From NCBI RefSeq assembly GCF_002879855.1, contig NZ_PNYB01000018.1:62001-126000 (forward strand): a DNA stretch of 64,000 bases, given 5' to 3'. A model generated the notes under the pieces. That model was not told the origin of the DNA. It did no database searches and was given only the letters and a program-made list of their open reading frames with translations. Shown piece after piece: positions 15,441 to 19,758 of the stretch. How positions within the stretch are numbered: the stretch's first letter is position 1; every line of letters starts with the position of its first letter. This stretch comes from Trinickia soli (GTDB lineage Bacteria > Pseudomonadota > Gammaproteobacteria > Burkholderiales > Burkholderiaceae). Made by a program: the position numbers and the translations under genes.

Positions 15441-15638
15441 GGGAAATTTCTCCGAAAGAATCCCGGCGACATGCCGTTATCCAGTGAGAGCGATTATTCC
15501 CGCACAGGTCAATGGATGATCGGCGGATAAGGCGGGGGAAACGGGTGCATTTCGAGTGATCGGCGGTTGGCCTCCCGCGATGCGCCGCCGCGGCGGCCTC
15601 AACGAGAATCGATGCCGATTGCCGTCCCGAGCGGGAAC

Positions 15639-15670
15639 AAAAACGGCGGACCCCGACACGGGCCCGCCGT
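15639..15670 (-). terminator. Rho-independent terminator after DUF3443 copy 1
   Basis: Read on the minus strand, a GC-rich stem (ACGGCGG.CCC against GGG.CCGCCGT, one mismatch, loop about 6) is followed by five T residues (15643-15639). It lies 49 bases past the stop of the leftward DUF3443 gene and also insulates it from flhB. Confidence 0.75.
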
Positions 15671-15692
15671 CTGAAAGCAGGTCAACTGATAA

Positions 15693-15713
15693 GGCCCCGA
15701 TAATTTCGGGGCC
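15693..15713 (-). terminator. Second stem-loop after DUF3443 copy 1
   Basis: GGCCCCG (15693-15699) pairs perfectly with CGGGGCC (15707-15713) around an AT-rich 7-base loop, 6 bases after the stop. A weak T-rich stretch follows on the minus strand (TTATCAG). It probably acts with the stronger terminator at 15639-15670. Confidence 0.5.
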
Positions 15714-15718
15714 GTCGA

Positions 15719-16972
15719 TCAGAAAGCGACGAACGGATTCGAGCCGCCCGAACCCGACTGATCCATACCGTAATAGACGGTGTGGCCATAGAAGAACGGC
15801 ATGCCGAGATCGACGAACGTTGCGCCGTTGCCGAGGCTGCCGGCCAGGTTATTGAGCGCGAAATTGCCGTTCTGCAGCAATTGGGATGCGTTCCCGATCG
15901 ACATCGTCAGCGTCATGCCGCCGGGCGCACCGGTCGTGTTCGCGTTGTAGCTCGCCACCGATACGTTGCGCGTCACGGTCCCGGCCGGGCAGTAGAACGC
16001 CGACGCGTTACCCGTGCAATTGGGCAGCGTGGGATCGGTGAAGAAGTAGGCATTGGACCCCGAATCGAAGAATGCGGTGATCGGGCCGCCGTTGAATGTC
16101 GCGTTGACGTCGCCGAATGCGTTGGTGGTTAGTTTCGTCACGGTGCTTGGCAACGCATTGTTCGTCTGTGTGTTGATGCCGAACGTGAGCGTGCCGGTGA
16201 CCGTCGATTGGCCGCTCGGGGAAATGCCGGGCATCGACAAAATGACGCCGTTATTGTCATTGGCGAACTTCGAGACGGGATTGGTGACCTGCTGCGACAC
16301 GGCAACGAGGGTTTGGACGCAATTGGCGCCGTTCGGGCACGCGTAATAGCTGCTGTTGCCCGCCGATCCGGCGGCGCACACCCCGCCGCAGTCATTGGGC
16401 GCCACGCCCACGCCCAGAATGCCGTTCGCGCCCAGCGCGGCCGGCGTCAGTTCGAGCGAGCCCGACGAGCAGTTGCCCGTGAGCACGGCGCCCTGCGGCA
16501 TGTCGCCGACGATCTGAATCGGCAAACCCGCCGCTGTCTCGCCACTGATCTTGACGTCGGCCGTGCGGATCGAGCCCCAGGTGAACCCGTCCGCGAAGGC
16601 CGTGCATTCGGCCAACTGGGCGCCCGCCACGGCTTCCTTCGGCAAGGAGCCCAGGACTTGGCTGGCGGCGGAACTGGCCACCCTGAGCCCGAACGATTCG
16701 GTATCGACCTGGATATTGTCGACCGTCTGACACACGGTCGTCCCGGGCGCGCAGATCGTCACGCTGACGGTTGGAATGTTCGCCACGTTTTCCACGCCCG
16801 AGCCGACGGTCACGGTTGCCTGGTTCGCTGCGGGCGGTGTCCCACCCGAACCGCCGCCTCCGCTCCCGCCGCCCCCGCCGCCGCAGGCGGCGATGAGCGC
16901 CGTCACGACAGCCAAACCGAGCGCACCAAGCACTCGAAATACGCTGCTGTGTTTGCTGTGAGTAAGCGACAT
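15719..16972 (-). CDS. DUF3443 lipoprotein, pepsin-like fold, copy 1 (altered active site)
   Basis: Recognised as a DUF3443-type protein of 417 residues. The N-terminus is a lipoprotein signal ending LIAAC (Cys30), then a Gly-rich linker, so it should sit in the cell envelope. I see pepsin-like landmarks in order: first-lobe motif IQVDTESFGLRV (Asp90), a flap-like loop FADGFTWG, ANGILGVG at 182-189, LTFGINTQT, second-lobe motif AFFDSGSNAYFF (Asp303), and DLGMPFFYGHTVYYGMD near the end. In this copy the first motif is DTES instead of DTGS, so catalysis may be lost. It follows its DUF2844 partner by 21 bases. Family function is not established; the protease reading is my inference. Confidence 0.85.
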   Translation of the reverse strand: MSLTHSKHSSVFRVLGALGLAVVTALIAACGGGGGGSGGGGSGGTPPAANQATVTVGSGVENVANIPTVSVTICAPGTTVCQTVDNIQVDTESFGLRVASSAASQVLGSLPKEAVAGAQLAECTAFADGFTWGSIRTADVKISGETAAGLPIQIVGDMPQGAVLTGNCSSGSLELTPAALGANGILGVGVAPNDCGGVCAAGSAGNSSYYACPNGANCVQTLVAVSQQVTNPVSKFANDNNGVILSMPGISPSGQSTVTGTLTFGINTQTNNALPSTVTKLTTNAFGDVNATFNGGPITAFFDSGSNAYFFTDPTLPNCTGNASAFYCPAGTVTRNVSVASYNANTTGAPGGMTLTMSIGNASQLLQNGNFALNNLAGSLGNGATFVDLGMPFFYGHTVYYGMDQSGSGGSNPFVAF

Positions 16973-16993
16973 GGCGCTCCCTTCCTTCGCTCG

Positions 16994-17503
16994 TTATTTG
17001 ATGTCCGCGCCCGTGATGCCGGCCGGCAATGCGCTCGGCAGCCATGCCTGGCCGAAGAACGAACCCATGTGCCCACCGGAATGCACGACCAGATTCGATT
17101 GCTCGACCGCGACCGGCCTGCGGCCTGGGCGCGCCGCCCGCTGCGCTTGCACGCTGCTCGCGTACTGCGGGAAATAGCCGCCGAGCAGGCTCTGCAGGTC
17201 GGGCATGCGCGGGCCATTCCACGCAATGCCGAAGACGTTCCCGTCGGCGCCGACGTACTCGCTCACCCGTGTGCCGGTGGCGAACGTCGTGGCTCGGACG
17301 GAATAGGCGGCCGCCGCCGCTGGCGATGCGCCCTGCATGGTCGAGGCCGCTCGGGCCGTGGGCTGGAGTGTGGTGGTGGTGGCGTCGGCGGGCGTGGACA
17401 TCGGGCTGCCGCCTAGCGCGGCGCTGGCTGGCCGGGAGAGCGCCCCCAACGCGCAAAGGACGAACGCCGCGGACACGGCGGCGCAAACAGGACGATTCGA
17501 CAT
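16994..17503 (-). CDS. Secreted DUF2844 protein, copy 1
   Basis: A 169-residue protein recognised as DUF2844. It has an N-terminal signal peptide (AAVSAAFVLCALGALSRPAS, cleavage after ASA), then a Thr/Ala-rich segment. The conserved core is YSVRATTFATGTRVSEYVGA, NVFGIAWNGPRMPDLQSLLG, and VVHSGGHMGSFFGQAWLP. It lies 21 bases upstream of the DUF3443 gene and probably forms one transcript with it. The same pair recurs at 17915-19758. A role as partner, propeptide-like factor or substrate of the DUF3443 protein is possible; nothing in the sequence decides. Confidence 0.85.
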   Translation of the reverse strand: MSNRPVCAAVSAAFVLCALGALSRPASAALGGSPMSTPADATTTTLQPTARAASTMQGASPAAAAAYSVRATTFATGTRVSEYVGADGNVFGIAWNGPRMPDLQSLLGGYFPQYASSVQAQRAARPGRRPVAVEQSNLVVHSGGHMGSFFGQAWLPSALPAGITGADIK

Positions 17504-17914
17504 CGGATCGGTTCCTCCGGGTTGGAGTGATCGGTCGCGTGACCGTGCCTGGACGGGCGGCGAGCGCCGTCGTTGCCGGCATTCCTCAGTGCAAATTTAG
17601 TACATAGACAGCGTGTGCGTAAGGACAATGAAGGCGCAAGTCGCGTGCCTGGACGATTCGAATCGTCCGTCCCTCGATGCGGGGAGCGTGGCCAAGGGCC
17701 AAGGGGCGTAAGGGGAAGCGCCGGGCGGTTCCCGGCGACGCGGCGCGATGGGGCTGGCCATCTGCCGTCAATAGAGCGGCGAAAGGGAATGGAAAGGAGC
17801 GAGGCAACTCGCAGAAACGGCGCGGCGCCAGCCGTCGATGGCTGGCGCCGCGCCGTTTTTCATCCGCGAGCGGCCGAGGTCGCCGCACGCCTACGGCGCG
17901 CGGACAGCTTCGCG
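17504..17914. other. Intergenic region between the two DUF2844-DUF3443 cassettes
   Basis: This 411-base stretch holds the strong hairpin at 17817-17860 and presumably the promoter of the downstream cassette. I see no convincing gene; the open frames here are Arg-rich antisense-type frames typical of GC-rich DNA. Confidence 0.6.
17817..17860. terminator. 17-bp perfect hairpin, bidirectional terminator type
   Basis: ACGGCGCGGCGCCAGCC (17817-17833) pairs without mismatch with GGCTGGCGCCGCGCCGT (17840-17856) over a 6-base loop. A T run (17856-17860) follows on the plus strand, and TTTCT follows on the minus strand. It lies 55 bases past the stop of the minus-strand DUF3443 copy 2, so its expected job is to end that transcript. 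Confidence 0.8.
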
Positions 17915-19228
17915 CTAGAACGCGACGTATGCCGACGAGGCAACGCCGGCGCTGCCGCTGGAGGCGATGTCGTAACCGATGTAGACGGAGCGGCCGTAGA
18001 AGAACGGCATGCCGAGGTCGAGATCGCTGATCGCCGAGATCGAGCCGCCCAGATCGTCGAACGCGTAGTTGTTGCTGCTCAATAGTTGCGTGGCGTTGGC
18101 GATGTTGAGCGTGAGTGAACCCGTCGTACCGTTGAACCCTGTTACGGTCGCACCGCGCTGGACGGTGGACGACGGACAGAAGAAACCGCTACTACACTGC
18201 GCAATCGAGTTGTCGACGAAGAACAGGCCGTTCGAGCCCGAATCGAAGAACGCCGTCAGCCCGCCCGTGCCGGCCAGCGTCGCGCTTTGCACGTCGCCGT
18301 AGTGGTCCGTCGTGTAGCTGTTGATGCCGGAACCCGGCAAGGCATTGTTCGTCTGCGTGCCGATGCCGAACGTGATACTGCCCGTGACGCTCGTCGCACC
18401 CGCCGCCGCAACGGCGGGCATCGCGATCACGATGCCGTTGTTGTCGGTGGCGAAGCTGCGGATCGGATTCGACACTTGTCCGGCGAGCGGCATCAACGAA
18501 CTGCTGCAGCTCGTGGAAGTCGGGCAGACGTAGTAGGCGCCGTTCGCGATTGTCGTGGCGCAATAGCTGCCGCAGTCGTAACGAGCGGTCCCCACGCCGA
18601 GAATGCCGTTCGCCGCCAACCGCGACGGCGTATTGTTCAGCGTGCCGGTTGCGCAGTGGCCGCTCGCCACAGCCGACTGCGACAGATCGTCAAGCACATG
18701 CACGGGTACGTTCGATGCCGTCTCACCGTTCATCTTCACGTCGGCCACGTGGACATAGCCCCAGGTGTACCCGTCTGCGAAGCCCGCGCATTCGGCCACC
18801 GCCGAGCCGCTGAGCGTTTCCTTCGGCAGCGAACCGAGGAACGTGCTCGCGGCGGCGCTCGCGAGCCGCAAACCGAACGAGCCCGTATCGAGTTGAATGT
18901 GATCGATCGTCTGGCATGTCGTGGTGCCCGGCACGCAGAGCGTGACGCTGACCATCGGCATGTTCGGGGCCGCGCCCGTCAAACCCGACGATACGGTGAT
19001 CGCTGTCTGGTTGGCGGCGAGCGTCGGTGTGCCCGTGCCGCCGGTCGATCCGGTCGAAGTGCTGCCGGTGCTGGTGCCGCCCGTGCTACCTGTACCGCTC
19101 GTGCTGCTGTTTGTGCTGCCCTCCGAGACGCTGCTCGAACCACCGCCCCCGCAACCCGCCACCAACGCTACGGCCGTCGCCAGGATGAACGCGCCGAGCG
19201 TTCGGCCCCATTTGCTGTCGATTCGCAA
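17915..19228 (-). CDS. DUF3443 lipoprotein, pepsin-like fold, copy 2 (intact DTGS/DSGS)
   Basis: A 437-residue paralogue of the gene at 15719. Lipoprotein signal ends LVAGC (Cys26), followed by a Ser/Thr/Gly-rich linker to about residue 70. Pepsin-like landmarks are complete: IQLDTGSFGLRL (Asp114), flap-like GFADGYTWGYVHVADVKMNG, ANGILGVG near 206-213, SITFGIGTQTNN, AFFDSGSNGLFF (Asp329), and DLGMPFFYGRSVYIGYD near 404-420. The Asp-Asp distance is 215 residues, against 183 in pepsin. Six or more Cys in the middle suggest disulfides. It sits 26 bases after its DUF2844 partner. The family function is unassigned; an aspartic protease is inferred. Confidence 0.86.
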   Translation of the reverse strand: MRIDSKWGRTLGAFILATAVALVAGCGGGGSSSVSEGSTNSSTSGTGSTGGTSTGSTSTGSTGGTGTPTLAANQTAITVSSGLTGAAPNMPMVSVTLCVPGTTTCQTIDHIQLDTGSFGLRLASAAASTFLGSLPKETLSGSAVAECAGFADGYTWGYVHVADVKMNGETASNVPVHVLDDLSQSAVASGHCATGTLNNTPSRLAANGILGVGTARYDCGSYCATTIANGAYYVCPTSTSCSSSLMPLAGQVSNPIRSFATDNNGIVIAMPAVAAAGATSVTGSITFGIGTQTNNALPGSGINSYTTDHYGDVQSATLAGTGGLTAFFDSGSNGLFFVDNSIAQCSSGFFCPSSTVQRGATVTGFNGTTGSLTLNIANATQLLSSNNYAFDDLGGSISAISDLDLGMPFFYGRSVYIGYDIASSGSAGVASSAYVAF

Positions 19229-19254
19229 GATCGTTCTCTCCTCGATCTCATTCG

Positions 19255-19758
19255 TTATTGGATATCGGCGGCGCTGACGCCGGCCGGCAGCGACTGGGGC
19301 AGATAGGCCTGCCCCGAGAACGCACCCATATGGCCGCCCGAGCGCACGACGAGCCCCGGCACTTCAAGGTTCAGCGGCCCGCGACCCGGATGCGCCGCGC
19401 GCAGTGCGTTGCGCGCGCTGTCAAATTGCGTGAAGTAGCTGCCGAGCAACGTCGGCAGGTCGGGCATCATCGGCCCACGCCAGGCGATGCCGAACACCGT
19501 TCCCGCCGTCGAGACGTACTCGCGCACGACGGTGCCCGACGACAAGGTCGTTTGCGTGACGGAATAGGAGGCACTGGGGGTGGCGCTCGCGGCACCCGAT
19601 GCGGCGCGAGCCACCGGTGCAAGCAAGCGTGACGTCGCGCCCTCGGGCGGCGGGGTCGGCGTGCCGCCGAGCGCGGCGTGAGCTGACGGCAGTGCGTACA
19701 ACACGCCGCCAGCGGCGAGCGTCGCGACCAACGTGGCGCGAATCGATCGACTGGGCAT
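19255..19758 (-). CDS. Secreted DUF2844 protein, copy 2
   Basis: A 167-residue DUF2844 protein with signal peptide (ATLVATLAAGGVLYALPSAH, cleavage near AHA-A). The core is YSVTQTTLSSGTVVREYVST, TVFGIAWRGPMMPDLPTLLG, and VRSGGHMGAFSGQAYLPQSL. It is closely similar to the protein at 16994 over the last 110 residues, showing duplication of the whole two-gene cassette. It is the first gene of the cassette. Confidence 0.85.
   Translation of the reverse strand: MPSRSIRATLVATLAAGGVLYALPSAHAALGGTPTPPPEGATSRLLAPVARAASGAASATPSASYSVTQTTLSSGTVVREYVSTAGTVFGIAWRGPMMPDLPTLLGSYFTQFDSARNALRAAHPGRGPLNLEVPGLVVRSGGHMGAFSGQAYLPQSLPAGVSAADIQ

Follow-up and report, generated by a model that had tools for sequence, protein, structure and literature searches.

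Paired DUF3443 lipoproteins of Trinickia soli as probable pepsin-fold aspartic peptidases with a DUF2844 partner

The window analyzed here, a stretch of 64,000 nucleotides from Trinickia soli (contig NZ_PNYB01000018.1, positions 62,001 to 126,000), carries two tandem gene pairs, in each of which a DUF2844 gene lies just upstream of a DUF3443 gene; all features given below are on the reverse strand. The DUF3443 proteins are probably exported, lipid-anchored, disulfide-rich aspartic peptidases with a two-lobed pepsin fold and a DUF2844 partner, and the copy with the motifs DTGS and DSGS would most likely be the catalytic one. That copy is encoded in pair b (17915..19228; 437 residues, TTG start; Pfam E 5.8e-124) behind its DUF2844 gene (19255..19758; 167 residues; Pfam E 1.4e-41); in pair a the DUF3443 gene (15719..16972; 417 residues; Pfam E 1.2e-126), with the motifs DTES and DSGS, stands behind a DUF2844 gene at 16994..17503 (169 residues; Pfam E 1.3e-42). 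The intergenic gaps are 26 and 21 bases in the two pairs. The open reading frames and motifs named in an earlier sequence-only reading, which had proposed a pepsin-type (A1) protease, were all located, and their order was right.

The two-lobed pepsin fold that this reading expected of structure prediction is what AlphaFold2 returned for the pair b DUF3443 protein (residues 68-437, from an input alignment of 16 sequences): a single chain of two similar lobes with the pepsin fold over its whole length, in which each motif Asp is placed at the end of the expected strand. On this model DUF3443 very likely has a pepsin fold. In pair b the first active-site motif, DTGS (Asp114; 18878..18889), is followed by FADG, the predicted flap tip (Phe150; 18770..18781), by NGILG, the N-lobe psi-loop motif (residues 207-211; 18596..18610), and by the second active-site motif, DSGS (Asp329; 18233..18244), so that the pattern D[ST]G[ST] is present in each lobe. 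In pair a the corresponding features are DTES (Asp90; 16694..16705), where Glu replaces the usual Gly, FADG (Phe126; 16586..16597) and DSGS (Asp303; 16055..16066). The spacing of the two Asp residues, 215 residues in pair b and 213 in pair a, agrees with that claimed earlier.

Conservation was evaluated with MAFFT alignments of 88 distinct full-length DUF3443 domains, identical sequences having been merged; many members come from one bacterial family and are thus not independent. Two sequences, the partial L036 and the weak L016, were left out of the counts, and L050 (cut, and from the same place as L010) is outside the 88 and inside the 89 cases and 33 pairs used below. L016 (G137:C33:30355-30594) is a pepsin-type LLVDTGSDSLLLF stretch within an open frame of 4118 residues. 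Both motif Asp residues are kept in 88 of 88 domains, across several classes including bins labelled Acidobacteria, as are the N-lobe psi-loop Gly, the Gly of the second motif and the Ser that closes the first; the C-lobe Gly is kept in 87, the remaining sequence having a gap. In the N-lobe hydrophobic-hydrophobic-Gly motif both places are hydrophobic in 32 of 34 sequences, and the position of pepsin Thr218 is occupied by Ser (75), Thr (11) or Ala (2). Nine cysteines of the domain are kept in at least 31 of 34 sequences and a tenth is invariant in the 16-sequence alignment (alignment A1). One detail of the sequence-only reading had to be revised: the Tyr or Phe four residues past the Phe had been taken as the flap residue, and the Phe that starts FADG is the more likely counterpart of pepsin Tyr75, because the hairpin turn of the model falls there, between strands 75-83 and 86-99. 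The register was set by eye against the YGTG of the pepsin flap.

Homology of DUF3443 to family A1 is probable, and is argued mainly from the predicted fold, because the profile alignments are weak and only in part better than shuffles. The hhalign references were bacterial A1-type proteins from other genomes, classical or shewasin-like, with maxima taken from shuffles (60 for L045). DUF3443 scored 46.0 with L045 (shuffles at most 24.4), 31.9 with L037 and L040 together (at most 20.6) and 30.3 with L043, L037 and L040 (at most 22.4). L045 (G595:C1, near 1332383), through which DUF3443 is best linked to family A1 at the profile level, is a secreted-looking A1-like protein from another class with a Pfam Asp match at E 6.5e-5 and the motifs VDTGSTGLYIL and FDSGA. 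L043 (G404:C279, in a bacterial genome bin) has a classical Asp match at E 6.2e-69, far above the other bacterial ones, and could lie on a foreign contig. Global hhalign gave nothing useful, and when the N-lobe was compared with the C-lobe only the two Asp motifs lined up (probability 2.3). The PROSITE aspartyl-protease pattern matches 2 of 34 DUF3443 sequences, and PF00026 finds no match in the Trinickia soli genome.

Other results weigh against the peptidase reading. The Pfam Asp family (PF00026) matches 0 of 16 DUF3443 members at E up to 10, and a sequence-profile search of the PDB with DUF3443 returned no protease. A six-protein A1 set scored 26.9 (shuffles at most 20.2), but with the DUF3443 C-lobe motif aligned on the N-lobe motif of the set; the scores with L043 alone (17.1) and with L038, L039 and L044 (16.6) fall within the shuffle range of the other sets. 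The position after Asp-Thr in the first motif is Gly in 70 of the 88 domains and Glu (7), Met (6) or Ala (5) in the other 18; 87 domains have Arg where pepsin has Trp39; and the Tyr75 position, in the preferred register, is Phe in 83 and Tyr in 5. A Phe at this place is also listed for some bacterial pepsin homologues in a survey (PMC2761423). In the C-lobe the hydrophobic-hydrophobic-Gly motif has Asp at its first place in 27 of 34 sequences, with the Gly retained. Two DUF3443 genes (L063 and L064) stand without DUF2844, and for DUF2844 itself the VIA-align list contains nothing that is clearly related in structure, its matches there being at noise level. The proposed A1-type assignment therefore holds for the two-lobed fold, the Asp motifs and the N-lobe hydrophobic-hydrophobic-Gly, and fails for the C-lobe Gly motif, the PF00026 match and the pepsin residues Tyr75 (flap) and Trp39; since several defining features are absent, membership of DUF3443 in family A1 is not established.

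Some of these departures could also be read as signs that DUF3443 is a pepsin-fold binding protein, like the A1-family xylanase inhibitors and pregnancy-associated glycoproteins, with a cleft that would hold a ligand or DUF2844. The replacement of Trp39 by Arg and of Tyr75 by Phe would alter the flap, and the 18 domains without the first-motif Gly belong to a clade that is conserved rather than decaying. However, both Asp residues are kept in every domain, in several classes, in the Acidobacteria-labelled bins and even in the solo plasmid copies L063 and L064, while the inactive A1 proteins described in the survey are those whose active-site Asp is not conserved (PMC2761423). For the family as a whole we consider a binding role unlikely, and catalysis by the DTGS members stands, as we infer it, at roughly three chances in four.

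For the DTES copy in the window taken alone the two sides are close to balance, with the chances of a binding role about even. All 18 sequences lacking the Gly fall within one clade of 31 (FastTree, midpoint root; local support 1.0). In seven genomes of the genus, that of the window included, DTES marks one of two tandem copies, and always the corresponding one; in four other genomes of the genus every copy seen has DTMS. Mean identity is 76.0% among the seven DTES copies versus 62.2% among their seven DTGS neighbours, and pN/pS among the DTES copies alone is 0.29 (pS 0.51). Because of this higher identity and the low pN/pS, the DTES gene is, on sequence grounds, a maintained paralogue and not a decaying one. 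The pair a copy may not be catalytic; it is probably conserved as a specialised paralogue whose catalysis is altered or lost.

Lipid anchoring, which had also been proposed, is borne out by a lipobox in both window copies (VAG-C, Cys26, 19151..19162 in pair b, followed by a Gly/Ser/Thr-rich tether; IAA-C, Cys30, 16883..16894 in pair a) and by a match to the strict lipobox pattern, hydrophobic run included, in 82 of the 88 domains; the remaining six show, by eye, Cys-Gly-Gly after a hydrophobic run. Lipobox and signal peptide calls were made by pattern matching and not with a signal-peptide program. The residue after the lipobox Cys is Gly in 77 sequences, Thr in 2, Ser in 2 and Ala in 1. In E. 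coli a Gly at position +2 points to the outer membrane, and by this analogy the counts suggest that DUF3443 is anchored there. Cys and domain are joined by a tether of low complexity, with a median length of 36 residues and a G/S/T/P/A/N/Q content of 92%, compared with 60% in the domain; thus no structured propeptide in cis is visible in the DUF3443 N-termini.

The proposal of a fixed, small, exported DUF2844 partner is upheld by the pairing in relatives and by signal-peptide-like N-termini, which end at AHA-ALGG in pair b and ASA-ALGG in pair a; the start of the mature DUF2844 protein (x-Leu-Gly) is conserved. DUF3443 occurs without DUF2844 in 3 of 89 cases (L058, L063 and L064); L058 ends at the locus edge and repeats the L060 gene, and L063 and L064 are truly solo. 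These two are on plasmids of Caballeronia sp. SL2Y3 and B. vietnamiensis, where the solo DUF3443 gene, with both Asp residues kept, directly follows a TAXI-family TRAP solute-binding gene. Across 33 pairs DUF2844 and DUF3443 co-diverge. The DUF2844 model is a compact domain (pLDDT 87, pTM 0.80), and a PDB profile search with DUF2844 gave no clear relative. Any likeness to PepSY-type domains would lie in a weak PepSY_2 match at E 0.025, which 2 of 17 members gave, and in a few periplasmic DUF2874-type structures among the noise-level structural matches. That DUF2844 is a propeptide, inhibitor or chaperone of DUF3443 is a tentative proposal, somewhat short of even odds. It could instead be a substrate or carrier processed by DUF3443, with which the strict pairing and co-divergence fit equally; but its gene is upstream, its predicted domain is compact and there is no obvious cleavable linker except at model residues of about 26-44, and we regard this role as doubtful.

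The surroundings of the pairs might suggest a flagellar or chemotaxis component, since cheZ, a gene for a CheY-like regulator and cheB flank them on one side and flhB and flhA on the other, and Burkholderia glumae has one pair in the same place, between cheZ and flhB. Relatives, however, adjoin unrelated genes: there is no conserved third gene, the 79 neighbour proteins matching 141 Pfam families of which none recurs in more than three. A third DUF2844-DUF3443 pair of the same genome lies on a different contig, and hairpins close each window pair, which makes a flagellar role improbable. One hairpin separates the pairs (17805..17870; 18-bp stem, -55 kcal/mol, z -8.2, short T tail; a possible pair b terminator), and two lie 3' of pair a (15635..15730; z -4.4 and -4.6, with TTTTT after the second; likely terminators). 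Because of these, each pair looks like a separate transcription unit. A sigma-70 scan of the region found no promoter, and a general terminator scan found 4 hits against 3.8 in shuffles, i.e. no enrichment. Elsewhere, L102 (G749:C1:376300-384500) has three pairs in tandem, with DSGA as the second motif in two of the three, and at L025 and L032 a lytic transglycosylase (SLT) gene lies just downstream of the pair. Least probable of all, and very unlikely, is that the pepsin fold match is an artefact of prediction, although the small input alignment (16 sequences) would speak for it.

In the peptidase reading, which we favour, Asp114 and Asp329, one per lobe, would activate water in a cleft beneath the Phe-tipped flap, while the lipid on the lipobox Cys and the Gly/Ser/Thr-rich tether would hold the enzyme at a membrane. 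DUF2844, encoded immediately upstream and exported along with the enzyme, would bind its own DUF3443 and serve it in trans as propeptide, inhibitor or folding partner, and the substrate might be an envelope or extracellular protein. A fuller proposal is an envelope pepsin system: an outer-membrane, two-lobed, disulfide-rich aspartic protease without a cis propeptide, folded or held inactive by DUF2844 as a separate propeptide, with a clade carrying Ala, Met or Glu for the catalytic Gly and a non-catalytic paralogue fixed beside the catalytic one. Taken whole, this is possible but rather unlikely.

Searches of open-licence PMC literature found no mention of DUF3443 or DUF2844 and no paper combining pepsin-like aspartic, lipoprotein and Burkholderia; an automatic fold assignment for DUF3443 (PF11925) may already exist in MEROPS, Pfam clans, ECOD or AlphaFold DB. 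Of the genomes sampled, DUF3443 is present in 67 of 150 from the window's family (10 of 25 genera) and in 10 of 398 from across the phylum. Named relatives are found in Caballeronia (C. grimmiae, L022, among them), in one Caulobacterales bin and in the Acidobacteria-labelled bins. Pepsins in bacteria have been described as rare and as cytoplasmic: the 2009 survey (PMC2761423) lists homologues in seven species, none of which carries a signal peptide. Should DUF3443 be active, bacteria would thus have far more exported two-lobed aspartic proteases than has been supposed, and the few cytoplasmic pepsins described would be joined by an exported kind. The genetic partner suggests control in trans, and two families of unknown function would become a testable enzyme-regulator pair that bears on the origin of two-lobed pepsins.

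Like pepsin family A1 (PF00026), DUF3443 has two lobes in a single chain, an Asp motif per lobe, an aromatic flap residue and the N-lobe hydrophobic-hydrophobic-Gly; it differs in the absence of a sequence-profile match, in Arg for Trp39, the Phe flap and the Asp of the C-lobe Gly motif, in its cysteine set, in having a lipobox and tether instead of a propeptide, and in its partner gene. The shewasins and other bacterial pepsin homologues are likewise bilobed, but shewasin D is described as mainly cytoplasmic (PMC4814920), and these proteins lack a signal peptide and have Asp at the Thr218 position (PMC2761423; PMC4814920), whereas DUF3443 is exported with a lipid anchor and carries Ser, Thr or Ala at that position. 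Rlo and RimB of Pseudomonas are aspartic proteases that are likewise exported and have partners in their operons, but are reported to be retropepsin-like (PMC12239564); DUF3443 departs from the retropepsin-like (A2) plan of one lobe and one Asp motif per chain, with both lobes and both Asp residues in one chain and with different partners.

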